Source of the DNA: an uncultured Eubacterium sp.
Lineage (GTDB): Bacteria > Bacillota > Clostridia > Lachnospirales > Lachnospiraceae
Assembly: GCA_947088865.1 (NCBI GenBank)
Contig: CAMUHY010000006.1
Coordinates: 1-64,000 of the forward strand
Reading direction: 5' to 3'
DNA: 64,000 nt
Shown here: positions 9,817-57,907 of the stretch, in pieces
How the letters are laid out: the number at the start of each line of letters is the position of its first letter
Numbering within the stretch: position 1 is the stretch's first letter
Program-made: the position numbers and the translations under genes
The notes under the pieces: model-generated
Database searches by the model: none
What the model saw: the letters and a program-made list of their open reading frames with translations, nothing else
Told to the model about the DNA's origin: nothing

Positions 9817-11958
9817 TTAGTCTACGTAATTTTCTGCTAATAAATCTTTTAACCATTTATTTAAACTTGAACAATTTATTTTATCACATTGCCCTTGTAC
9901 TTGATTTACTATATATCTGCCATTTTCATAATTAAATTCAATGGTATATCTCTTAGAAACTCCTTCTTTATTAAATTTTCCTTTTCTATCTATATAAGAA
10001 TATATTGCACATTTATCTTCTGTAATTTTGTTGGCATAACTCCAAACACAATGATGTTGCAATTTTGTTTCTAAAATCAATCTTTTTCTTGTTTTAATCC
10101 ATTCAAAACCTTCTGGAAGTATCTTTTCTAAATCTTTAAATATTGTATTTTTAGGAATTTTAACAATCCCTGTTTCTTTTCCATAATCCGTAGTAATATT
10201 AACCAAATCATGTTTATTCTTTAACTCATTTATTGTTTTTATATTTAATTTTATCTTTATTTTTCTCTGTAAACACATATTTACATAGTCTTGTACGTCT
10301 TGTATAATGAGGTTTTTATCTTCATCTTTTAACATGCCTGTTTCTACACACATCAATTCTTGTTCTGTTTCTACATCTAATTTTATTGATTTGCAAATAA
10401 TATTTATAAGAAAATTTTTCACTTTACTTTTAAATCTTCCTTTTATATCTTCTGTCAATAATGTAGTATCTCTTGTATTAAGAAGTATCTGCTTTCCTTT
10501 TTCATCTACATAAGGTACTGATTTAATTATCATATAAGCAAGATTAATATTAATTTTGTTCCATTGGATTTTGAGATTATTAGCAGCTTTATATTGATTC
10601 ATAATTAATTCACTTCTATTATGAAAATTTCCCAATTCATTTATATTTAATGGAACAAGACAATTACCATTCAATATGTCCTTTCTAATATCTTTAAATA
10701 TATAATTACTTTTTTCATATATATCCCATATAATATTAAATATATTTACATCTTTTTCATATTGATTCAGTAATTTCATACATCCAATAAAATCACTAAC
10801 AGGCATTGGATATATTTTTTTATTTTTAAAATGTTGATTTTTAATATATATATAACCATTTGGCATTATAACAACACTTTTTTTTACAATACATCCCCCA
10901 ATATTAATCCTACCATTAAGAATTTCTAAATTACTATAAAGATACATATCAATATTAATATAATTTTGATTAATTATAATAGTATATTGCAAGGTATTGA
11001 ACTTATATGCTCTTAAATCCTTTCCTAATTGAATTGATGTTTTTAATAAAAGATTTGCTTTTTCTTCATCCTCATAAATTTTTTTACTAAAAACTTTATA
11101 GCTATTTTCACGTTCAAAAGGAAATACATTATAGAACTGTTTTAATATAGGATTATTATTAACATATATTTTTTCCATATATGTATGCAATGCATCTAAA
11201 TTATATATATTATTATCATCTATAAATTGTCTATAATTAATATTGATTTCCAATATGTTGATATTTAAAGCTATCTCTATAATATTTTTTATTATAGTAT
11301 TGGATTCATTCTCTTCATTACATTCTGATAGAACCCATATAAGAGAATCTTCCTGTCTTTTACTAAATTCTTGTAAAAATAAAGGTGTTTTAAATAAAGA
11401 ATATATACTTGCATTTCCACAAGAATATATATAATAAAAAGGTGATTCTTTTTTCGCCTTTGACAGTTCTTTCTCAAATATATTCTCTAACATATTTAAA
11501 AGTTTTTTAACATCGGATTGTAAAAGTTTGGGGGTTGCTTTAATAAATAGACAATAATAATTTAATATTGTGCGAAAACTATAATAATTTTGATGTTGAT
11601 TATCAGCAACCACCTTTTCAAGCAATTTATATGTATTATTAAAATCTACAAGGAACTGTTTTTCTTGCATATCAATAAATTTATTTTTATATGGAAGTAA
11701 ATAGAACAGTAATTTATCAAATTTTAACTGATAAGAAGTTGTCGTTTTTACTAAAGCTTTCAAATCAAGACAACTATTTATTTCGCTTATCACCTCATTT
11801 TCATTGTTAAAATCAGAGTGCTTAAAATGCCACATATAGTTATATACACTCTCTAATTCACTTATCGTTAAATCTTCCCTTAATAATATATTTACAAAAG
11901 ATTCCGACAGATTTAACTTTTTTGCTTTTTCTAGTATACTTTTTTGCCCTTTTCTCAT
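9817..11958 (-). CDS. PcfJ-like protein
   Basis: This 713-aa protein ends with the PcfJ domain, named after a gene in the conjugation region of enterococcal plasmid pCF10. The visible signature is LILETKLQHHCVWSYANKI, then AIYSYIDR, YTIEFNY and YIVNQVQGQCDKIN (about residues 600-700). The long N-terminal part is helical and not recognised. The molecular role of PcfJ is not known. Its ATG overlaps the stop of an 8-codon leader ORF (11955-11981) by ATGA, which would couple its translation. Confidence 0.8.
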   Translation of the reverse strand: MRKGQKSILEKAKKLNLSESFVNILLREDLTISELESVYNYMWHFKHSDFNNENEVISEINSCLDLKALVKTTTSYQLKFDKLLFYLLPYKNKFIDMQEKQFLVDFNNTYKLLEKVVADNQHQNYYSFRTILNYYCLFIKATPKLLQSDVKKLLNMLENIFEKELSKAKKESPFYYIYSCGNASIYSLFKTPLFLQEFSKRQEDSLIWVLSECNEENESNTIIKNIIEIALNINILEININYRQFIDDNNIYNLDALHTYMEKIYVNNNPILKQFYNVFPFERENSYKVFSKKIYEDEEKANLLLKTSIQLGKDLRAYKFNTLQYTIIINQNYINIDMYLYSNLEILNGRINIGGCIVKKSVVIMPNGYIYIKNQHFKNKKIYPMPVSDFIGCMKLLNQYEKDVNIFNIIWDIYEKSNYIFKDIRKDILNGNCLVPLNINELGNFHNRSELIMNQYKAANNLKIQWNKININLAYMIIKSVPYVDEKGKQILLNTRDTTLLTEDIKGRFKSKVKNFLINIICKSIKLDVETEQELMCVETGMLKDEDKNLIIQDVQDYVNMCLQRKIKIKLNIKTINELKNKHDLVNITTDYGKETGIVKIPKNTIFKDLEKILPEGFEWIKTRKRLILETKLQHHCVWSYANKITEDKCAIYSYIDRKGKFNKEGVSKRYTIEFNYENGRYIVNQVQGQCDKINCSSLNKWLKDLLAENYVD

Positions 11959-28830: not shown

Positions 28831-28886
28831 GTGTGAAAAATAAATTTTTCACACCACAATTTGTGTCTGCGCGTTGCTTGACACAA
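28831..28886. promoter_or_regulatory. Two dyads upstream of the LysR gene
   Basis: A perfect 24-bp palindrome GTGTGAAAAAT-AA-ATTTTTCACAC (28831-28854) is followed by TTGTGTC-N12-GACACAA (28861-28886). Both lie in the divergent region between an unknown gene and the LysR gene, where LysR regulators commonly bind. Confidence 0.65.
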
Positions 28887-28927
28887 AGTTGTTTATGCGC
28901 AAAAAGCAGCGCAGAAATGAGGATTTT

Positions 28928-29821
28928 ATGGAATTAAGAGTTTTACAATATTTTCTTGCAGTGACACGAGAACAGAGTATATCAGGAGCTGCTGAATCAT
29001 TACATCTATCTCAGCCAACTCTTTCTAGACAGCTAAAAGAGATGGAAGAAGAACTAGGCAAACAGCTTATGATTCGTGGAAATCGACGGATTACATTAAC
29101 GGAAGAAGGTATGATTTTAAGAAAACGAGCGGAAGAAATCATGGAACTTGTCAAAAAGGCTGAAAATGAAATTTCTTTGTCTGATGATGTAATTGCAGGA
29201 GATATTACGGTTGGCGCTGGTGAAACCGATGGGATTCGCTTTTTAGCAAAAGCGGTAAAAGCCCTTCAAAAAAATTATCCGCTTATTCATCTGCATATTG
29301 TCAGCGGTGATAAAGCTACGGTGACTGAAAATTTAGATAGAGGACTGATTGATTTTGGTCTTATTTTTGGAAGCATTGACACTTCAAAATACGAATATAT
29401 AAAAATGCCTTATAAAGATACTTGGGGCGTTATTATGCGCAACGATGCCCCTCTTGCCGAAAAAGAAAAAATAACTGCTGAGGATTTATTAGATAAGCCT
29501 CTTATTATTTCTCGTCAAGCATTTCACAACTCTGATTTTCGCGAGTTTTTTCCATGCAGTCAAGATAAACTAAATATCGTTGCAACCTATAATCTTTTAT
29601 TTAATGGCTCTATCATGGTTGATGAAGGTCTTGGATATGCCATTAGTTTTGATAAACTTATCAATGTTTCAGGTGACAGTCCTTTATGTTTTCGCCCTCT
29701 TGAACCCAAACTTGAAGCCAGTATGAGTATTATTTGGAAAAAATATCAAATCTTTACAAAAGCAACCGAACGATTTTTAGAAAAATTGCAGGAAATTATT
29801 GAATTTTACCCAATCAAATGA
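28928..29821 (+). CDS. LysR-family transcriptional regulator
   Basis: The 297-aa protein has the LysR N-terminal winged helix-turn-helix (LRVLQYFLAVTREQSISGAA, LHLSQPTLSRQLKEMEEELG) and a C-terminal substrate-binding-type domain (about residues 90-295). The ATG at 28928 is chosen over upstream in-frame starts because GAGGATTTT lies just before it. LysR regulators usually control a divergent or nearby gene; here the divergent gene (27724-28590) is separated by two dyads. Effector unknown. Confidence 0.85.
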   Translation: MELRVLQYFLAVTREQSISGAAESLHLSQPTLSRQLKEMEEELGKQLMIRGNRRITLTEEGMILRKRAEEIMELVKKAENEISLSDDVIAGDITVGAGETDGIRFLAKAVKALQKNYPLIHLHIVSGDKATVTENLDRGLIDFGLIFGSIDTSKYEYIKMPYKDTWGVIMRNDAPLAEKEKITAEDLLDKPLIISRQAFHNSDFREFFPCSQDKLNIVATYNLLFNGSIMVDEGLGYAISFDKLINVSGDSPLCFRPLEPKLEASMSIIWKKYQIFTKATERFLEKLQEIIEFYPIK

Positions 29822-29942: not shown

Positions 29943-30119
29943 TTAATTGAATTTACGTTTTCTAGCAGCTTCAGACTTTTTCTTACGTCTAACGCTTGGT
30001 TTTTCGTAATGCTCTCTTTTACGAATTTCCTGCTGAATGCCCGCCTTTGCGCAATTTCTCTTAAATCTTCTCAATGCGCTATCCAGAGATTCATTCTCTT
30101 TAACGATGACATTTGACAT
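29943..30119 (-). CDS. rpsU: Ribosomal protein bS21
   Basis: The 58-aa protein is a full bS21: [20 protein letters not shown], then [20 protein letters not shown] and a basic tail ending in RKRKFN. bS21 helps base pairing of the 16S 3' end with mRNA ribosome sites. A GAAGGGTGG site lies upstream, and a strong hairpin terminator follows, so the gene is monocistronic here. Confidence 0.97.
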
Positions 30120-30341
30120 ATCTGCTCATAACCACCCTTCTGTAGCAAATTGTGCTTGGGCAATACGTAATTAGGGTATTAACTAATCGCACAATAGACA
30201 TTATATCATATTATATCCAATAGTCAACCAAAAAATACAAAAAAAAACCAATTTTCCTAATAGCTTAGCCATACAGACAAGTATAAGTCAAATTATTTTC
30301 TATTTTAGATGCTTGTTTGTCCATATTTGTATTTAAAACAC

Positions 30342-30554
30342 TTAATATTCTTTAGAAATATCTGAAATATCATATATTTCCATAAACCTATCAAGGTCTT
30401 CTTTATTGCGAATAAGTACCACTTCTTCAAATTTGCCTGTGTGGATATTTTTAAAACCAGCTATCTGCTCGCCATTACATATACTGCATCGCAATATTGG
30501 CTTAAAATTTTCTTTGTCATATCTTTTCTTTTTTACTGCCTTTTTTCCAAACAT
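30342..30554 (-). CDS. Small conserved cysteine-pair protein
   Basis: The start ATG at 30554 is preceded by GAGGGG; an upstream in-frame start lacks a site. The 70-aa protein reads MFGKKAVKKKRYDKE, LRCSICNGEQIAGFKNIHTG and FEEVVLIRNKEDLDRFM. I recall closely similar short Firmicutes proteins of unknown role with this CSICxGEQVAGFK core; the name is uncertain. The single Cys pair may bind a metal or act in redox chemistry. It is the last gene behind the SPFH operon with a 106-bp gap, so membership in that operon is uncertain. Confidence 0.65.
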   Translation of the reverse strand: MFGKKAVKKKRYDKENFKPILRCSICNGEQIAGFKNIHTGKFEEVVLIRNKEDLDRFMEIYDISDISKEY

Positions 30555-30660
30555 AAAACCCCTCTTTATTTCTTGTTTTATTTTAAATAACAATATAAAA
30601 TTTTTTAATCTACTATCTTATTTTAAATATCAAAGTGACTTACTTGACTACCTTTTATAT

Positions 30661-31356
30661 TTAATGCTCCTTATTTAATTTACATAATCTATTACGTTCT
30701 GTCAATGTGATACTTATTTTTTTACACATTATTTTTATATTTTCTACGTCTGAATTTATAACACATTGTTGCAGTTCATCAACCATAATATGAAGTTCAT
30801 TTTCTATATCAACTAGACAATCATTACTCACAGGGTCACTATACTTAAAAGCTTCACTTAGTTCAAATAAAACTTTTTTTGCTTCTACATTCTCCATTTG
30901 TGCTATTAAAGAATATACTTTTGAACGTAATTCCTGAATACATTGAATATTACTATCGTGTTTTCTATCTTGTCGTTCAATTTCATCTCTTGCAGCATCA
31001 GCCCCTATAACTCCTATAAAAGCAGCGCAAAACATAAAAACAAATACAATAACTACAACCCATATTGGTATATATTGTGCCAGCACAATGGCAATAAGAC
31101 TAAGCAGCAATTGTGTAATCATATAAATGATTCCAATTTTCGCTATTGGAAATCCATAAAATTTACTTTTGACATGAATCCTGCCATAAAAAGCTATTTT
31201 TAACACATATGCCTGTACAGCTACTGAAATCACCCCAAACAAATACGATACCCAAAACACCTTATTTTTAGGTAATGGTATAATAAAAACTATTACAGAA
31301 AATGCTATTATAACAGCTGCTAATGCCGCTAATGCTCTTTTCGAGTTTTTAGTCAT
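30661..31356 (-). CDS. Four-helix membrane protein of the SPFH operon
   Basis: The 231-aa protein has four membrane helices (about residues 7-25, 34-52, 70-90 and 96-117) and a soluble helical C-terminal domain (about 120-231). The ATG at 31356 is 2 bases past the stop of the SPFH gene and the ribosome site AGGAG is inside that gene, so translation is probably coupled. No family is recognised. In Bacillus subtilis the SPFH protein YdjI works with two membrane proteins (YdjG/YdjH); a similar scaffold role is possible but only inferred. Confidence 0.7.
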   Translation of the reverse strand: MTKNSKRALAALAAVIIAFSVIVFIIPLPKNKVFWVSYLFGVISVAVQAYVLKIAFYGRIHVKSKFYGFPIAKIGIIYMITQLLLSLIAIVLAQYIPIWVVVIVFVFMFCAAFIGVIGADAARDEIERQDRKHDSNIQCIQELRSKVYSLIAQMENVEAKKVLFELSEAFKYSDPVSNDCLVDIENELHIMVDELQQCVINSDVENIKIMCKKISITLTERNRLCKLNKEH

Positions 31357-31358
31357 AT

Positions 31359-33134
31359 TTATTCTCCTCTCTTTCTGCCACAATTACTGCAAAAATTTCC
31401 TACAATACCTCTATTTCCACAAGTACAATCCCATACATTTTGCGTTGTCTGTTCTGGTCTTTTTAAACCGCACATATTGCAAAAATTTCCTATAATTCCT
31501 CTATTTCCACAGGTACAATCCCATGTATCCTGCATTTCTGATTCTGTTTTTTTTGAACCGCACATACTGCAAAAATTTCCTACAATGCCTTTATTTCCAC
31601 ATACACAATTCCAAGATTGCTGTATTGTATCGGATACATTTTGTCCCGTTTGCAATAAACTGCCCATAACTGGAGACATTGCATCTTTAGTTATATTAAC
31701 CATGCCGCCCATTGCTCCTAATCCTATTCCTAAACTTGCAATATCGCCGAACACAGAGCCTCCCATATTTTGTGTTCCTCCAGTCAGACCATTTTTCATA
31801 GCCTCCATTCCAACTTGTCGTGCTGTTTCTTGTTGATATGAATAGCCTTTCATCTTCATTTCGGTAGCTTCTGCTTCCGCTTGCATCTTATAGGCTTCTG
31901 CTTGCGCCTGTGCCTTTAATCTCAATGCTTGTGCATCACCTTGTGCTTCAATAATTTTCATTTGTGCCGCTGTCTGTGCCTCAACAGCTTTTCTCTGTTG
32001 CGCTGCTTCTGCCTCACTCTTTCTAATCTGTTCTTGACGAACAAACAAATATTGCTCTGCATATTGTTCTTTCATCTTTCTAAAATTAGGGTCATCATCT
32101 GGAGTCAACACTCTGCTTATAAAAAACTCTGTTATCTCTAAGCCATAATCTAATAAATACACATTTAATTTTTCTTTTAATGCGTTTGAAAGTTCTATGA
32201 TTCTTTCATCAATTTCTAAAATATTAATATTATTTTCCTTAATTGCTTGAGCTAGATAGGACTTCACTTGAGCCATAATCATTGCACGAAAATATCCCTT
32301 TCCGTTTGTTCCAATTAACTGACTCTGATTAAGATTACTTGTTGTACCAACAAGCTTTGTCAACAATTTTCTGGAATTGACAATATGAATATTAAATTCA
32401 CCACTTGCCCCTATCTCAATATATAAACCTGAAGCTGAATCAAATAAACGAACCTTTGAGTCTGTTCCCCATTTAACAGCCATAACTGTGGCAAGATTAA
32501 TATAGTAAATCTCTGAATGAAACGTACTCTCTGTATCCGTTGGCAATGGATATATTCTTTCTAATAATGGTAATTGTTGTGTTTCTAACGTATACCTACC
32601 AGCGCCAAATGTATCTAGTGCTTGACCATTTTTAAAAAATATAGCTTCCTGACTTTCATGGACAATCAACTGCGAACCATAATTAAAATCTTCAACTGGA
32701 TGCTTCCAGACCAATGTATCTGCATCCCCTTCATATTTTATTATGCTAGCCAAGCCATCACGTTTAATTTTTTTGCTCATTACCCTTTCGGTAACACTAT
32801 TTTCATAATCGCACACTGGACATATATATTTTTCTATACCTTTTTGAACAAATAACTGAACACCACATTGAATACATGATATTTCTTCTACTTTTGTCCT
32901 ATCGGTATATAAATTAACAGGTTCCCTGCATACAGGACAAAGTGCTTTATCTCCTTTCGTCTGGTCAAATACAACATTATTGCCGCAATGTTCACATACT
33001 CTACTTGTCAATTTATCTGTTTTTATATTTATTATATTTCCACATACACAATTAATTTTTTTACTTGCAAAAAATCCTGTTTTTCCTTCTGCGAATTTTC
33101 CACAGCTAGGACATTCTATTATAAATTTTGACAT
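31359..33134 (-). CDS. SPFH (band 7)-domain protein with zinc ribbons at both ends
   Basis: The 591-aa protein begins with zinc ribbons (CPSCGK, VCGN, CEHCG, CPVCRE, CIQCG, CPVCDYEN; residues 1-110). An SPFH domain of the YdjI/virion-core type follows (about 125-360; SIIKYEGDADTLVWKHP, SQEAIFFKNGQALDTFGAGR). Then comes a long alpha-helical stretch rich in Ala, Gln and Glu (about 365-440), a Gly-rich part, and three C-terminal zinc ribbons of the form WxCxCGN(K/R)GIxGNFCxxCG. Members form membrane scaffolds and respond to envelope stress. Start ATG 33134 follows GGAGG. Flanked by an RHH protein and a TIR protein gene upstream and a membrane protein downstream. Confidence 0.85.
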   Translation of the reverse strand: MSKFIIECPSCGKFAEGKTGFFASKKINCVCGNIINIKTDKLTSRVCEHCGNNVVFDQTKGDKALCPVCREPVNLYTDRTKVEEISCIQCGVQLFVQKGIEKYICPVCDYENSVTERVMSKKIKRDGLASIIKYEGDADTLVWKHPVEDFNYGSQLIVHESQEAIFFKNGQALDTFGAGRYTLETQQLPLLERIYPLPTDTESTFHSEIYYINLATVMAVKWGTDSKVRLFDSASGLYIEIGASGEFNIHIVNSRKLLTKLVGTTSNLNQSQLIGTNGKGYFRAMIMAQVKSYLAQAIKENNINILEIDERIIELSNALKEKLNVYLLDYGLEITEFFISRVLTPDDDPNFRKMKEQYAEQYLFVRQEQIRKSEAEAAQQRKAVEAQTAAQMKIIEAQGDAQALRLKAQAQAEAYKMQAEAEATEMKMKGYSYQQETARQVGMEAMKNGLTGGTQNMGGSVFGDIASLGIGLGAMGGMVNITKDAMSPVMGSLLQTGQNVSDTIQQSWNCVCGNKGIVGNFCSMCGSKKTESEMQDTWDCTCGNRGIIGNFCNMCGLKRPEQTTQNVWDCTCGNRGIVGNFCSNCGRKRGE

Positions 33135-33158
33135 TATAACAACCTCCATAACCGTATA

Positions 33159-33353
33159 TTACCGTTTTTCAATAATTTCTGTATTCTTAAGTGCATAATC
33201 TAAAAACATTGTAATAATTTCATTTCTTGTTCTGCCAGACTCTCTTGCCACACAATCTATATCTTGTAACATATCTTTTGGAATTCTGGCAGATACAACC
33301 ACAGACTCTTCTTTATATTTTTTTATTTCAATCTTTAATGGTTCTGTCATCAC
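33159..33353 (-). CDS. Ribbon-helix-helix (Arc/CopG) protein, likely operon regulator
   Basis: The 64-aa protein is a compact RHH fold: VVVSARIPKDMLQDIDCVAR and SGRTRNEIITMFLDYALK. Such proteins bind operator DNA as dimers. The GTG start (or the following ATG) has AAGGAG upstream. It lies between the TIR gene (32 bp after it) and the SPFH gene (24 bp before it), so it probably autoregulates the operon. Confidence 0.8.
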   Translation of the reverse strand: MMTEPLKIEIKKYKEESVVVSARIPKDMLQDIDCVARESGRTRNEIITMFLDYALKNTEIIEKR

Positions 33354-33385
33354 ATTATGCTCCTTAATTAAGTTTTATACAAAGA

Positions 33386-35395
33386 CTATTTAAGTCGATT
33401 CAATTCAGCGTCTATTTGCTTAAATCTAGCTTTATAATTTGCTTTTTTAGATAAATATACAATTGAATTCATATTCTCAATTTCAACTTGTAACTTTGTT
33501 CTCTCAACAATCAATTCTGATTTTCTATCTTTAATTTGTTTGATTTTTCTTTCTATCTCAAATATTTTTTTTAAACTATCTGAATATCCATTTAGAGAAC
33601 TAAACATTTCTTTGAGATTATTATAATCGGTTTCTGATATTGCTTTTTCTAATTGACTACACGCTTTTTGATACCCTAGCGTATATTTTTCATATTTAAT
33701 ATTTTCATACTTTGACATTAATTCTTGTTTTAACTGTAAACAATTCTGATAATCACCAATTTTATCCATCAATTTCAAACATTCTTGGCAGCCTTCTTCG
33801 GTATTTGTATCCACATCTTTTAATATTTTTAGCAGTTGATTATAATCATCTTTTCGCTTATTTTCTCGTTTGTTCTTAACTTCAATTATTTTTGCTTTTG
33901 CCTCCTCAATTTTCTTCATAAATAAATTCTTATGTTTTTCTACATTTTCATGTATTATATTACTTTCAATATGGTTAAAAATAGATTTTTCAATTGTTTC
34001 AACAATTTGTTTATCTTCATCATCAGCAAATGAAACTGCTCTTCTCCACAATTTATTTCCTTTAAGAAATTTCTGTTCTTCTTTTAATTGTCTATTCCAA
34101 TCATCTACTTTTGTTTTATATTTATATGTTTCTGGCATCATGGAAATAATTTCTTGTTCTTCAAAATACAATGGAACTTTATAATTTTCAACCAACTCTT
34201 TTTTATCGACCAATTCAAACCAATTAATTTCATATTTTGTATCCGATGCAGTCATATGTTCACTATTTCTTTTTTTAATAAATTCATTGGCATTGACACA
34301 GCGATTTTGTGCTAAAAATTCATATAAATATGCTTTTGCATTTTCAGGGTCAAGAGCCAATGTTTGTTCTGCAAATTTAGTGGCAACTTCCCACTCCCTA
34401 TCTGCAAGCTCTAACTGCGCTCTTTTTAACGCTGAATTTATCTGATTATCTGTATCATTTGACTGAACAGCTATTTTTTCATTATTCGTTTCTTCACTGG
34501 AAGCATTAACAACTTTTTTAATACCTCGAATTAAATCTTGTATAAAACCAATTTTACTCATATCATAAGACTGCAATATAGACAATGCTTCTGGCATATC
34601 ATATGGATCCATTTCTCTATAACAAGGCAGCAGTAATTTATTTCTATCCTTCTTCATAAGGGCAAGATACCTGCTCCATTCATTTTTTACCCAGACAGCA
34701 TTTAAATATTCTGCACTCGTACCAATAACAATCATTACTTTGGCTGAATTTAAGGCAGCAAATATATACGGCTCATATTCTGCACCAGCTTTATCTTCCA
34801 GTGTTATTCGCGCAAAAAATACGCGATAGCCTTCGTCTGTAAGTTGATAATATATATCTTGAGCATATGTACTATCTTTTGTTCTATTACCTTGTGAATC
34901 GGATTCCTTATAACAAATAAATATATCAAATGGTTGCTCATTTTGTGATGTTGCAAGGATTCCTTTTTGTACTTCTGCAATTTTTGCCGCATCCTTTTGA
35001 TATTGTCTTTTTGTCAATCCATCGGAATACTCTAATGCAGCAAGATAATCAACATCTTCTAAAAAATTATCAAAACTTGCTCTATGACATGTTGGTATCC
35101 AGTCAAATGTTGTAGGGTCTTCAACATATTCAATACCAAAACGACAGAGCGCACAGCACCAATGAGCCTCTGCATCCTGTTCATTTTCTCTAACAATATG
35201 CTCATAAAGCGCTAATGCCTTATCAAATTCTCCTATTCTTCTAAAATGATTACCTCTGTTAAACGATGCGGCTCTCTGTTCATCATCTACTTTTGGAAAA
35301 GTAAGGGTATTACCACAATATTCACATGTACCAAAAGTTTTATCCTCTAAAACTTCAATATCTCCGCCACACATTTTACATTTAAAAATTGCCAT
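33386..35395 (-). CDS. Zinc-ribbon/TPR/TIR-domain protein
   Basis: The 669-aa protein has an N-terminal zinc ribbon (CKMCGGD...CEYCG, residues 6-27), TPR-like helices (about 40-150), a TIR domain (about 155-290; FDIFICYKESDSQGNRTKDS, GYRVFFARITLEDKAGAEYE, AVWVKNEWSRYL) and a long helical C-terminal part with further TPR- and coiled-coil-like helices. The Glu in the WxxxE motif (residue 239), the catalytic position in NAD-cleaving TIR domains, is kept. Bacterial TIR domains often act as NADases in antiphage defence. Ribosome site AAGAG. It heads an operon with RHH, SPFH and membrane genes. Confidence 0.85.
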   Translation of the reverse strand: MAIFKCKMCGGDIEVLEDKTFGTCEYCGNTLTFPKVDDEQRAASFNRGNHFRRIGEFDKALALYEHIVRENEQDAEAHWCCALCRFGIEYVEDPTTFDWIPTCHRASFDNFLEDVDYLAALEYSDGLTKRQYQKDAAKIAEVQKGILATSQNEQPFDIFICYKESDSQGNRTKDSTYAQDIYYQLTDEGYRVFFARITLEDKAGAEYEPYIFAALNSAKVMIVIGTSAEYLNAVWVKNEWSRYLALMKKDRNKLLLPCYREMDPYDMPEALSILQSYDMSKIGFIQDLIRGIKKVVNASSEETNNEKIAVQSNDTDNQINSALKRAQLELADREWEVATKFAEQTLALDPENAKAYLYEFLAQNRCVNANEFIKKRNSEHMTASDTKYEINWFELVDKKELVENYKVPLYFEEQEIISMMPETYKYKTKVDDWNRQLKEEQKFLKGNKLWRRAVSFADDEDKQIVETIEKSIFNHIESNIIHENVEKHKNLFMKKIEEAKAKIIEVKNKRENKRKDDYNQLLKILKDVDTNTEEGCQECLKLMDKIGDYQNCLQLKQELMSKYENIKYEKYTLGYQKACSQLEKAISETDYNNLKEMFSSLNGYSDSLKKIFEIERKIKQIKDRKSELIVERTKLQVEIENMNSIVYLSKKANYKARFKQIDAELNRLK

Positions 35396-35517
35396 TTTAA
35401 TCTCTTCATCCCTTCTGTTAAAAATCGTTCAATACGAAATAAAATGTATTATGTAAACTATTGTATTACAAAAGTATTATTAACGCAATCACTAATCTTA
35501 TAACTTTGCACAAATAC

Positions 35518-35613
35518 AGGCTGCCGCAAAATGATTCTCCCACACAAGATAACAATACCAATAAAACTATATGATACTTCATCTTGCACAAAAACTTCAT
35601 CTTGCGACAGCCT
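35518..35613. repeat. Long inverted repeat downstream of alaS
   Basis: AGGCTGCCGCAAAATGA (35518-35534) and TCATCTTGCGACAGCCT (35597-35613) pair over 17 bases with 2 mismatches; the 12-mer ACTTCATCTTGC occurs twice inside (35576, 35594), 18 bp apart. The hairpin loop would be long and the T run is weak, so it may be an alternative terminator for alaS or a small mobile repeat. The rest of 35396-35645 shows nothing. Confidence 0.55.
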
Positions 35614-35645
35614 TTGCATACGCTTTTTATATCATTTTTTACTGC

Positions 35646-53827: not shown

Positions 53828-56800
53828 TTACTTGTTTAACGTATCAATATCAATCATTTGAGCCAAATGTTTTAAAAGAAGAACGGCATCCGTAACATTC
53901 ACATCTCCATTGCCATCAACATCTGCTGCCTTTTCATCTATATTGACAGCTATACCTGCCAAACGTTTTTTCAAAAGTACAGCATCGGTTACATCTCTCT
54001 TGCCATCTCCATTAAGGTCGCCACGTTTTACCGCTGCATTTTCAAATTTAATGACATATGTATACTCTACGGTATTGCTTTCTTCTCCGCCATCCGTTTT
54101 TGCATAAACCTTAACTACTGTTGTAACGGTTTTTCCTTCTTCTCCAAGTATATCAATCTTTTCTGTATACAATTTTGCTGTTGAAGAAGTCTTAGGGTCT
54201 GAACCGTCTGTTGTATAATAAATTTTTGCATTGGCATCCGAACAAATCAATTCTATCTGACGGTTTTGTGTATATTCACCCGATATGACACTGGCATATG
54301 GCGCGCTCACTTTGCCGCCATCACCCTCATAATTTGGATTTTTATACATATAAAACCCTGTTAAATCCTTAACATTTGCCATATATTTATCCGTCGTTGT
54401 ACCTACTGATGTAAATACTGCATAAAGGTCATGTTTTCCTGTTATATTATCTGGCAATTTCACTTCCATATCCAAAGGTGCATAAGAGGTTGCTGTGATA
54501 ATTCCGCTTGCAATTTCTGTGCCATCCTTACTATCCAGTCGAATAGACACTCTTTGCTCACCATTCTTTGCCTTGCGCGCTGCGGACAGCGATAACTTTG
54601 TTAAACCAGTTACATCACAATCTGGATATGCAAAACCTACGGAACCTACTGCTTTATCAATTGTTGTTGTGCCATTTGCGTTGTTGATTACATACCCTAC
54701 ATTGGTATTGCTGTTTTCCAATTTTGGAGCTTGTCCTCCTTCAGTATTAAAAAATCCTTTTACATTTGATACAGGAGATACCCATGTACCTTCTACATAT
54801 TCTGGCTCATTTTTTCCAAAAGAACTCAAAGTATACACTTCACCTGCTGTTCCATTAAATGTAATTGTATTTTCGCTGTCGTTTAATGTTGTTTTTATAA
54901 CATTTCCATTGGAATCAGAGACTATAACTTTTCCCATATACTCATTGCGAACATGAACTTCTCCATTAACAGAAGGTGCAATCGTTGCCTTTACAACTTT
55001 TCCATCTTCCCATGTACAGGCTACCTCTGCACCGCCTCTTGCCTTTAAACCAGAATATGAACCATTTTTCCATGTTGAAGGAATAGCTGGTATTAAATCA
55101 ATAGCATTGTCATGTGATTGAATTAACATTTCTGCAACACCTGCCGTTGCTCCATAATTACCATCTATCTGGAAATTTGGATGCTGGTCAAAAAGATTTG
55201 GTGATGTTCTTGTTGTAAACAACTGTTCTAACATCGAAGATGCTGCATTGCCGTCTAACGCTCTGGCATTGAGGGAAATTCTCCAAGCCAGTCCCCAGCC
55301 TTGTCCAGAGCCTGCACCTCTTGCCTTTACGGAATTGCAGTACGCTTCATATATCGCTTTTTCGTTGGCATCATCTGCATATGCACTTAAATGTGTTCCC
55401 GGATACATCTCCCAAAGCTGTGAACAATGACGATGTCCATTAGCATTAGAAGCACCATGTGCATATACGCCAATCTGTTCATCAGGATTGCTTGAAAATG
55501 GGTTTGTCACCTTCCAGTCACCAGGTTCACGTTTTGAAATATCAAATGTTACATCGCCTCTTGCCCACTCTTTAATAAGCCCCTGATTATCAATAAGGTT
55601 TGGCGCTATTTTGCCCTTCTCATCGGCAAGATAAGTAGATGGCATCTGCTCTTTAATCGTTGCAAGAAGCGCTGCATTTTCAGCTTCTTTTCCTAAAATT
55701 GCACTGGCTTTGCAAACCATATCATACAAGTTGCGAATCAACTGTGTATCCATTGCAGCGCCTGGCTGAACACCACCTTGTTCTGGCGAACAAGAAGCTG
55801 CTGTGACAAGATAGCCTGTCTTTTCATCAACCGTCACAAATTGCGTAAAAAACTTCGCTGAGCCGACCATATAAGGATAAACCTCTGCAAGATATTCTTT
55901 GTCATTATTAAATTGATAATACTGCCAAGCATGGTCTAAAAGCCATATACCGCCCGTAGGCCACAATCCAGCTGTTGCGTTATCAATAGGCTGTGTTCCT
56001 CTCCAAAGGTCAAAGTTGTGATGGGTTACCCAAGGGTCGCCCGCCTGATATGTATTATCCCCTCTATTATTATAGATGGCATACTGATTGGCAGCAGTGA
56101 TTGAACCCGATTGAGCCAGCTCATCAAACACATCAATTAAAGGCTTCTCACATTCTTCGGACAAACCTAATATATTGGCTGCCCAATAATTCATCTGTGT
56201 ATTAATATTAATGGTATATTTGCCCTTCCATGAAGCCGATAATGCGGCATTCCATTTGCCCGTAAGGTTGAGCGGCTGCGACTCATAAATATCAATATCC
56301 CCTGATGTAGAGCCATCTCTTGAACCGGATATCAACAGATATTTGCCATAGTTAAATTCAAGCACAGCCAACTGATTGTCACCTTCAGAATACGTTGTTG
56401 ACACGCCTGTTTTTTTCGCATCGGACATACTGTTTCCCGCACCGACCGTAAAGCCAGACTTGCCGTTTACATCTTTACGAATACGTTTTTCGGTAGGAAC
56501 ATCAGAAAAATCTTTTCCATCTACATTTTCAACAGAAAGTGATGATGCCTTAAACAATGGTGAAAAATCTTGTATATGTCTTTCTTTTATCTGATTATAA
56601 TTTTTTGCCTTGATATTATTGATATACACTGCACAATCTTTTGCTGGCTTTGTATTGTCAAGACTTAAGTAATCTACATAATTGGAAGCGCCTACCACAT
56701 AAATTGTAGCTTCCTTTCCGCCCTGAACCTGTACGGTTGTATTATCTTCTGATACTGAAAATGTGCCATCACCTTCCAGAAGCATATGTGCTTCAAATGA

Positions 56801-57907
56801 AATGGCATTAATTGTTGATGGAACATCCGAATTTTTATTGCCATCGGTGACAGAAGCGACTAATTTTACTTCTTTGTCACTAACTTTTTCATATTTAAAA
56901 TAGCCTTCATTATTGTGATATGTATGAAGCTGCGCACTAAAACTCAGTTCTTTATCGGATGAAACATGCGTAACAACCGCTTGGTCTGGATAACTTGCAA
57001 AGGTTTCTCTTGTAAAATGTGTATTATTGTAATCATAGTCAACAGTCACAATACCTTTTGTCATATCAAGACTTTTTGTATAATTTGTTGCCTTTTCATG
57101 TGTTTGATTAAAATCCAAATACACCTCAACAAATGACTTGTACGCGTGCTGTGAAGACGGACTTCCAAGAAATGTAGCTTCTACCATACGTTCCATAGAA
57201 TATCGCTGTTGTACCGCCTGCGCATCTTTTGCATTATTCACCTGAAGCGCCTGATACGAAATTGACATTTTTGAAAACTCTGGATATTTTGCACGGAAAG
57301 CCTCATCACCAACCAAAACATTGGCAGAGCCAATTGGTGCTGGCGAACCGTCCGCATTGGCGCCTCTATAATATTTCCAGCCATCCACTACGCTGCCGCT
57401 TGTCTGATTGGTTGTAGAAATTGTCTGTGCTTTCTTTGCCGCATCCATGCTTGTAATCGTATTTTTATTTTCATCTTGAATCGTACCATATGGCGAACCG
57501 TCCCAAATCGTGTCCTCATTAATCTGAATAACCTCTTTGTCAATGCCGCCTGCTATCATACCAGCCATTCTGCCATTGCCGACAGGATAACTGTATGTCC
57601 ATAAATACTCCGAATATGCCCAATCGTTTAATGTTTCCCCTGCTCTTGCATAAGGACTTTGATGACCACTGCTACTTTTCGATGAAGCATTTGGGTCTAC
57701 CTCTGCCATATTGTTGTATTTTGTCGTTGAATCTTCATCCAGCACCGTCTCCACACAAGTGTTTGTCCACATCGTGGTCTGAGGGTCAAACTTTTTTGCT
57801 TCGTCACTTGCCTTCACGCTCACCTGTGGCAAAACAAATGATGTTGCAGTTAATGAAACACAAGAAAAAAGGCAAAATGCCTTTTTTAATGTACTTGTTT
57901 TTTTCAT
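53828..57907 (-). CDS. Secreted GH95-type alpha-L-fucosidase with C-terminal dockerin
   Basis: The 1359-aa protein has a signal peptide (about residues 1-33). The GH95 catalytic part follows (about 85-960) with EYLWTYSYPVGNGRMAGMIA, QINEDTIWDG, INTQMNYWAANI, HHNFDLWRGTQP, GLWPTGGIWLLDHAWQYY and FQIDGNYGATAGVAEMLIQS, which holds the catalytic Asp. It then has a beta-sandwich region (about 960-1190), a chitobiase-like C-terminal module (KIYYTTDGSDPKTSSTAKLY) and a C-terminal type I dockerin with GDLNGDGKRDVTDAVLLKKR and DVDGNGDVNVTDAVLLLKH. The family releases alpha-1,2-linked fucose from mucin or milk glycans. Ribosome site GGAGG. The dockerin implies cohesin partners. Confidence 0.92.
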   Translation of the reverse strand: MKKTSTLKKAFCLFSCVSLTATSFVLPQVSVKASDEAKKFDPQTTMWTNTCVETVLDEDSTTKYNNMAEVDPNASSKSSSGHQSPYARAGETLNDWAYSEYLWTYSYPVGNGRMAGMIAGGIDKEVIQINEDTIWDGSPYGTIQDENKNTITSMDAAKKAQTISTTNQTSGSVVDGWKYYRGANADGSPAPIGSANVLVGDEAFRAKYPEFSKMSISYQALQVNNAKDAQAVQQRYSMERMVEATFLGSPSSQHAYKSFVEVYLDFNQTHEKATNYTKSLDMTKGIVTVDYDYNNTHFTRETFASYPDQAVVTHVSSDKELSFSAQLHTYHNNEGYFKYEKVSDKEVKLVASVTDGNKNSDVPSTINAISFEAHMLLEGDGTFSVSEDNTTVQVQGGKEATIYVVGASNYVDYLSLDNTKPAKDCAVYINNIKAKNYNQIKERHIQDFSPLFKASSLSVENVDGKDFSDVPTEKRIRKDVNGKSGFTVGAGNSMSDAKKTGVSTTYSEGDNQLAVLEFNYGKYLLISGSRDGSTSGDIDIYESQPLNLTGKWNAALSASWKGKYTININTQMNYWAANILGLSEECEKPLIDVFDELAQSGSITAANQYAIYNNRGDNTYQAGDPWVTHHNFDLWRGTQPIDNATAGLWPTGGIWLLDHAWQYYQFNNDKEYLAEVYPYMVGSAKFFTQFVTVDEKTGYLVTAASCSPEQGGVQPGAAMDTQLIRNLYDMVCKASAILGKEAENAALLATIKEQMPSTYLADEKGKIAPNLIDNQGLIKEWARGDVTFDISKREPGDWKVTNPFSSNPDEQIGVYAHGASNANGHRHCSQLWEMYPGTHLSAYADDANEKAIYEAYCNSVKARGAGSGQGWGLAWRISLNARALDGNAASSMLEQLFTTRTSPNLFDQHPNFQIDGNYGATAGVAEMLIQSHDNAIDLIPAIPSTWKNGSYSGLKARGGAEVACTWEDGKVVKATIAPSVNGEVHVRNEYMGKVIVSDSNGNVIKTTLNDSENTITFNGTAGEVYTLSSFGKNEPEYVEGTWVSPVSNVKGFFNTEGGQAPKLENSNTNVGYVINNANGTTTIDKAVGSVGFAYPDCDVTGLTKLSLSAARKAKNGEQRVSIRLDSKDGTEIASGIITATSYAPLDMEVKLPDNITGKHDLYAVFTSVGTTTDKYMANVKDLTGFYMYKNPNYEGDGGKVSAPYASVISGEYTQNRQIELICSDANAKIYYTTDGSDPKTSSTAKLYTEKIDILGEEGKTVTTVVKVYAKTDGGEESNTVEYTYVIKFENAAVKRGDLNGDGKRDVTDAVLLKKRLAGIAVNIDEKAADVDGNGDVNVTDAVLLLKHLAQMIDIDTLNK

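Follow-up and report, generated by a model that had tools for sequence, protein, structure and literature searches.

An inserted operon joining a TIR protein to an SPFH protein in an uncultured Eubacterium: a candidate cell-protection or antiviral system

Introduction

Plant TIR-NLRs combine a TIR with a hypervariable recognition part and are encoded in gene clusters. In bacteria, to our knowledge, SPFH proteins have no settled link to immunity, and we know of no SPFH protein or zinc-ribbon head that is part of Thoeris. Among described SPFH proteins, YdjI of Bacillus subtilis needs YdjG and YdjH to reach the membrane, according to the available part of PMC8581546, and operons combining Band-7 proteins with zinc ribbons are discussed as assembly platforms in the available part of PMC11237479. 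The B. subtilis pspA-ydjGHI operon, as described in these excerpts (PMC8581546, PMC11237479), encodes an SPFH protein with a C-terminal zinc ribbon beside recruiting membrane proteins, along with a zinc-ribbon partner. TIR products are able to activate membrane effectors, as stated in an excerpt of PMC12847820.

The operon described here lies in a 64,000-nucleotide stretch of DNA (the window; positions 1 to 64,000 of contig CAMUHY010000006.1, assembly GCA_947088865.1) from an uncultured Eubacterium sp. of the Lachnospiraceae. It shares with pspA-ydjGHI an SPFH protein with C-terminal zinc ribbons beside a membrane protein, but has a TIR protein in the partner's place and six zinc ribbons in the SPFH protein, half of them N-terminal; unlike in pspA-ydjGHI, none of the seven proteins scanned from the window matches PspA. 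As in Thoeris, the TIR protein has a catalytic-type glutamate and is probably an NAD-using enzyme, whereas no ThsA-type partner is recognizable by sequence (Pfam) and the TIR protein has no PADLOC match at E values up to 1. No Argonaute match, as would be expected for SPARTA (TIR-APAZ/short pAgo), occurs among the same seven proteins. The nearest TIR folds include those of the plant TIR-NLRs L6 and RUN1, but Pfam found no NTPase switch domain; the role of gathering TIRs may fall to a membrane SPFH platform. A type II toxin–antitoxin system would have an antitoxin constantly paired with a toxin, whereas the small ribbon-helix-helix (RHH)-like protein of this operon occurs in only 12 of 76 related loci. 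Judged by the sequence features tested, the gene set belongs with neither SPARTA nor Psp operons nor toxin–antitoxin pairs, nor, with less certainty as to a ThsA-type partner, with Thoeris.

An initial reading of the window from its letters alone (the sequence-only reading) knew of no described system with exactly this set, and we likewise found no published account in the open-licence literature. No link between SPFH proteins and immunity occurs among the literature matches listed. PMC7159879 contains SPFH solely in its reference list. The text of PMC13239085, on oak phages, contains the words SPFH and TIR. As far as searched, the parts are of known kinds except for the membrane protein, and the combination and the head–tail array described below are new within that literature.

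Results

Operon architecture and insertion

The sequence-only reading proposed a four-gene set within 30342–35395. The set is real: all four genes are on the minus strand, separated in transcription order (TIR protein, 64-amino acid protein, SPFH protein, membrane protein) by 32, 27, and 2 bp. The cassette proper occupies 30661–35395 of that range.

33386..35395, minus strand: TIR protein, 669 amino acids, with zinc ribbon (residues 6–27), TPR, TIR, and helical tail
33159..33353, minus strand: ribbon-helix-helix-like small protein, 64 amino acids (weak Arc/RHH_1 matches; 12 of 76 loci)
31359..33131, minus strand: SPFH (Band_7_1) protein, 590 amino acids (Pfam E 1.1e-36; tree)
30661..31356, minus strand: membrane protein, 231 amino acids, without accepted family
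30211..35645, no strand: approximate limits of the inserted stretch, flanked by alaS and rpsU (neighbors in congeners; promoter region of rpsU retained)

Homologues of a 70-amino acid ORF at 30342–30554 occur in 11 of 41 genomes, counting that of the window, but this ORF has no match among those of 106 loci, of which 30 are short, and was therefore left out of the set. Promoter-like matches in the region are no commoner than in shuffled sequence (31 vs 30.1), and terminator-like matches are about equal (4 vs 2.5), so that cotranscription of the four genes rests on their spacing. The top terminator-like site lies after rpsU and the top promoter-like site before it.

In this species the cassette is inserted. 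Both genes were readable in 19 other genomes of the genus (L148 and L158–L175; rpsU is partial at a contig end in two), of which 18 have alaS and rpsU adjoining within about 300 bp, and in G268 they are separated by ~1.4 kb; the contig of G260 ends after alaS, and G269 has no alaS match. The window has the four-gene operon and the 70-amino acid ORF at this position, with the rpsU promoter region retained. Distribution in the genus is patchy: counting the window's genome, 5 of 22 have the TIR protein. The order in G262 is RHH–SPFH–membrane–TIR, and the TIR protein of G250, G256, and G265 is more distant (31–37% identity), without SPFH in the stretch read, which for G265 is a contig of 6.9 kb. 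The gene set is found in gut and rumen bacteria. Searched against mobile-element records, the TIR-protein head gave no match in 50,697 phage and 72,556 plasmid records. Recent transfer from the locus with the nearest head (L032, 81–88% amino acid identity) was considered and rejected, the DNA identity being just ~67%.

TIR protein

As the sequence-only reading had it, the TIR is fused to a zinc ribbon and a TPR (residues 47–78), and the catalytic-type glutamate is kept.

35315..35380, minus strand: N-terminal zinc ribbon (CKMC...CEYC; paired cysteines, 59-protein alignment)
34496..34936, minus strand: TIR domain (residues 154–300)
34679..34681, minus strand: codon of Glu239, the catalytic-type glutamate in WVKNE (alignments)
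33389..34495, minus strand: variable tail (residues 301–669), helical in the model, partly at low confidence

Pfam detects TIR_2 at residues 158–280 (E 3e-13). In an alignment of 59 TIR proteins, C24 and C27 of the zinc ribbon are invariant, C6 and C9 nearly so, and Glu239 is invariant; among 146 proteins, Glu239 is kept in 142, the remainder being two gaps, one V, and one D. Trp235 is, like Glu239, kept almost throughout the aligned proteins. Glu239 aligns with the glutamate of WCLME in the TIR chain of a flax resistance protein, which we take to be catalytic. By structure comparison, the predicted TIR fold is nearest to the TIRs of SPARTA, plant NLRs (L6 and RUN1), and SARM1, the best 50 matches listed being TIR chains, and these nearest structures presumably include NAD-cleaving TIRs. 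Foldseek alone, run on the model of the whole protein, gave no match at E ≤0.001 (best 2.3e-3), and a profile of the full-length protein, searched against PDB sequences, found TPR proteins and designed helical ones. A TIR fold, here predicted, and a conserved catalytic-type glutamate are both features of catalytic TIR domains, and the window TIR is a probable NAD-consuming enzyme.

SPFH, membrane, and RHH-like proteins

The SPFH protein matches PF13421 (Band_7_1) at 126.9 bits against a cut-off of 24 (E 1.1e-36). Its zinc ribbons, initially put at five or more, number exactly six, all paired, with three at each end.

32811..33113, minus strand: the three zinc ribbons at the N-terminal end of the SPFH protein (paired Cys motifs)
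31380..31607, minus strand: the three zinc ribbons at its C-terminal end (paired Cys motifs)

Its one PADLOC match is weak (HEC-08, E 0.002) and falls over the zinc ribbons.

The membrane protein has about four hydrophobic helices by eye (three stretches computed), followed by a domain with YSDPVS and ERNxxCK motifs. It has no accepted family in Pfam, NCBIfam, or PADLOC, and a scan of 41 members of its family gave none either. Pfam found no macro or SLOG domain in the window proteins or in the membrane protein family.

For the 64-amino acid protein, Arc and RHH Pfam matches are below the curated cut-offs (E 0.0035 and 0.0046). The gene postulated for a small DNA-binding partner is present, but it is not a constant member: found by profile in just 12 of 76 loci, it is not a core part of the set. 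The protein is probably a regulator of the operon, acting as a repressor.

Linkage of TIR and SPFH genes

We surveyed TIR gene neighborhoods in two samples. The family sample, an even draw of 250 genomes, was searched at E 1e-20 (TIR), 1e-10 (SPFH), and 1e-6 (membrane protein), giving matches to the TIR protein in 20 genomes, to some related SPFH protein in 91, and to the membrane protein in 16, ten of which were TIR genomes. Of the 20 TIR genomes, 14 have the SPFH gene next to the TIR gene in the same orientation, including G248, where a contig end cuts the TIR gene and it was read from its tail. The SPFH gene is not beside the TIR gene in four (G116, G073, G198, and G097, in which the TIR gene is 1.7 kb from a contig end), and contigs were too short in two (G163 and G089). 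The class sample of 291 genomes, with both proteins sought at E 1e-30, had TIR matches in 16 genomes in ten families and SPFH matches in 34. Here the SPFH gene shares contig and strand with the TIR gene and lies no more than 6 kb from it in 13 of 16 TIR genomes, is not near it in two (G198 and G370), and lies, like the TIR gene, at a contig end in G372. Three TIR genomes (G000, G180, and G198) are common to both draws, and the 33 distinct TIR genomes comprise 25 with linkage, five without, and three undecided.

At these frequencies, adjacency of TIR and SPFH genes is more than chance, and so is the TIR–SPFH–membrane set. The two genes, which the sequence-only reading had placed in one system, are therefore mostly together rather than apart. 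The SPFH protein is not strictly needed by the TIR protein, since the latter occurs without an adjoining SPFH gene in five of the 33 genomes and also in G250 and G256.

In a pattern-based search of GTDB genomes, the best 80 of 167 relatives gave 76 loci; by clusters, an SPFH gene is present in 53, the membrane gene in 50, and the RHH gene in 12. Where at least 3.5 kb is free on both sides (34 loci), an SPFH gene lies within 6 kb in the same orientation in 27 and the membrane gene in 23. Median gaps are of operon size: 4 bp from SPFH to membrane gene (n=67), 25 bp from membrane to TIR gene (n=32), 14 bp from TIR to SPFH gene (n=19), and 11 bp from RHH to SPFH gene (n=8).

SPFH phylogeny

In a maximum-likelihood tree of 87 SPFH proteins, 67 of them TIR-linked, two clades are supported, one with 32 rows and the other with 39, and 66 of these 71 rows are TIR-linked. 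The linkage label changes five times on the tree versus 18.2 times when shuffled (0 of 500 shuffles as low), a clustering that near-copies (L089/L097) favor. The clade rows without a TIR link are L107 and L113, in which another zinc ribbon–TPR protein replaces the TIR protein, L115 and L116, which are at contig ends, and L122 (G116). Outside the two clades, 15 of 16 rows have no TIR gene alongside. Some long-branch rows are unsure in placement, by a warning of the program.

In the family sample, the membrane protein is beside an SPFH protein with no TIR found in six of its 16 genomes, and SPFH–membrane pairs without TIR have various other zinc-ribbon partners. Together with the 20 of 34 SPFH genomes of the class sample that lack a TIR match, these pairs indicate that the SPFH platform is probably both more general and older than its TIR partner.

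Constant heads and variable tails

The tail of the window TIR protein has no recognized sensing domain, and its best match among 135 other proteins is at 28% identity (L031). Pfam was run on 59 TIR proteins, namely the window's and 58 of 73 eligible ones, with 15 left out. All 59 have TIR_2, and among the best 25 of 40 families matched, the tails have DUF6273 (22 proteins), RCC1 (9), LRR_5 (2), FGE-sulfatase (1), and List_Bact (1). Both List_Bact repeats and LRR_5 are also present in a protein of L080, one of the 15 left out.

One to five TIR genes are present per locus, nearly always with a single SPFH–membrane pair. In 70 same-locus TIR pairs, the first 360 residues have a mean identity of 65% and the remainder 32%; head identity exceeds tail identity by more than 10 points in 68 of the 70, and heads are up to 97% alike. 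Tail classes are mixed within one operon, DUF6273 occurring in one of three TIR proteins of L131 and RCC1 in one of four of L096. At the DNA level, five of 12 hand-picked pairs with similar heads show a sharp loss of identity where the TIR ends (for example, from 97% to 49% in L130 4346/10905 and from 81% to 54% in L096 5961/8001), and the others a more gradual one. Third codon positions are more alike in heads than in tails in 13 of 15 pairs with heads at least 85% alike; in the remaining two, which are from L081, the tails are the more alike. Common ancestry is thus more recent for the heads than for the tails, or the heads have undergone gene conversion. One SPFH–membrane pair with several like-headed, unlike-tailed TIR genes looks like a receptor array. 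TIR-head and SPFH identities are loosely correlated (0.36), which may simply mirror the degree of head conservation.

Two sources of tail diversity were considered and rejected. Shuffling of tails between heads finds no example among 8,711 cross-locus pairs, none of which has a tail at least 5 points more alike than the head, and the tails are therefore better described as hypervariable than as exchanged. Because DUF6273 is part of the target proteins of diversity-generating retroelements in Faecalibacterium phages (PMC11792537, in its available part), the surroundings of TIR genes were searched for template repeats and for motifs of a reverse transcriptase. Outside the TIR genes, repeats occur in L032 and L048 only, with no A-bias among the matches listed, the other repeats being TIR paralogues; a crude scan of sampled loci gave no clear reverse-transcriptase motif.

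Discussion

The gene set is plausibly a cell-protection or antiviral system. The reading we favor, at just short of an even chance, is that the operon encodes a membrane-docked TIR effector-receptor system on an SPFH platform, triggered through the tail or the membrane. By analogy with YdjI, the multi-helix membrane protein would hold the SPFH protein at the membrane, where it would serve as a scaffold on which the TIR protein docks through its zinc ribbon and TPR. The trigger might be the tail itself or a change in the scaffold upon membrane perturbation. Other TIRs are activated by clustering, and clustering on an SPFH lattice could gather these TIRs, which from their predicted fold and conserved glutamate would consume NAD, leading to NAD loss or an ADPR-type signal and to a growth stop of the damaged or phage-infected cell. 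The RHH-like protein would repress the operon.

Unlike tails on constant heads are expected if the tails sense different things. Hypervariable tails with binding folds suggest that the targets recognized are diverse or change, and this in turn would favor defence over a housekeeping stress response. Counting against this reading are flanks that are not clearly richer in defence genes than random controls, the lack of a match to the head in the phage and plasmid records searched, the SPFH–membrane pairs with non-TIR partners, and the TIR genes that do not adjoin an SPFH gene. A broader and somewhat less probable proposal is an innate-immune receptor array in which constant-head TIR NADases with diversified tails (DUF6273, RCC1 propeller, LRR, FGE-like, and TPR) share one SPFH raft, as a prokaryotic counterpart of clustered TIR-NLR repertoires without the NTPase switch.

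The strongest rival, which we consider unlikely, is an envelope stress role, with the SPFH and membrane proteins repairing or stiffening the membrane as YdjI, YdjG, and YdjH do with PspA, and the TIR protein being a regulator with no part in phage defence. The C-terminal zinc ribbons parallel those of the B. subtilis protein (PMC8581546 and PMC11237479, in their available parts), and the zinc-ribbon partners of other SPFH–membrane pairs are not TIR proteins. The defence-island signal is also not clear: 75 PADLOC models, 25 of them listed, matched over 140 flank proteins (of 147 candidates) versus 22 over 140 random proteins (the first seven usable genes of 20 arbitrary 15-kb stretches), with many models matching one protein. 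Among the best 25 of 135 Pfam families in the flank proteins are three integrases and three resolvases. However, PspA has no match in the scanned window proteins, and the patchy distribution, insertion, and multiple copies of the TIR genes, together with their hypervariable tails, are more in keeping with recognition of changing targets than with a housekeeping stress response.

Two-step signaling as in type II Thoeris, which we regard as quite improbable, would have the TIR make an ADPR-type messenger and the membrane protein act as a membrane-perturbing effector, the SPFH protein only gathering. The membrane gene directly follows the SPFH gene in 67 cases at the short median gap given above, its product has the conserved YSDPVS and ERNxxCK domain, and membrane effectors can respond to TIR products (PMC12847820, in its available part). 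Against this, Pfam found neither a macro nor a SLOG domain, and the membrane protein also occurs beside SPFH proteins where no TIR was found. That the TIR is a non-enzymatic adaptor assembling a membrane complex is very unlikely: many TIRs are scaffolds, and TPR and zinc ribbons are binding parts, but Trp235 and Glu239 are retained almost without exception, and the nearest structures include TIRs that we take to cleave NAD.

The membrane protein brings up a protein family without an accepted match in Pfam, NCBIfam, or PADLOC. If the membrane-docked effector-receptor reading is true, an SPFH scaffold tied to catalytic-type TIRs in a widespread operon would constitute a membrane platform for TIR activation, and the set of TIR proteins with constant heads and hypervariable tails would be a directly testable bacterial receptor repertoire.

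Insertion site of the TIR-SPFH cassette

Beside the TIR-SPFH cassette, between alaS and rpsU, is a small open reading frame.

30342-30554, 70-amino acid protein with a CxxC pair, no family

Homologues of this protein occur at other places in 11 of 41 genomes, including the window's own, and it probably arrived with the same insertion as the cassette. In the window, a convergent LysR gene lies downstream of rpsU (29943-30119 and 28874-29821 for the pair of genes). The congener locus L148 has other genes after rpsU, and hence the two loci differ on this side as well. In one other congener (L173, genome G268), alaS and rpsU are spaced ~1.4 kb apart, a gap suggesting that insertions may recur at this junction.

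Other features of the window

9817-11958, PcfJ-like protein (Pfam, 2.3e-6)
53828-57907, dockerin-bearing GH95 glycosidase

The stretch holding the PcfJ-like gene is low in GC (0.23-0.30) and may be a mobile element. The dockerin domain is a hint that the organism has a cellulosome.

TIR and SPFH loci in other genomes

TIR cassettes (L071 and L091), and TIRs with no SPFH gene nearby (L049 and L056), occur in genomes labelled Lentisphaerae/Lentisphaeria, which may reflect cross-phylum transfer or mis-binned contigs. The SPFH-membrane protein gene pair also has other neighbors.

L126:6459-7259, ADP-ribosyl-glycohydrolase-like gene (sub-threshold TIGR02662 match, 2.2e-12)
L125:11101-15690, zinc-ribbon Ser/Thr kinase with List_Bact repeats

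At L126, the pair lacks a TIR and is followed by the glycohydrolase-like gene. At L125, it is located downstream of the kinase, with an integrase-like fragment, identified by eye, between them. This kinase is possibly an alternative output domain.
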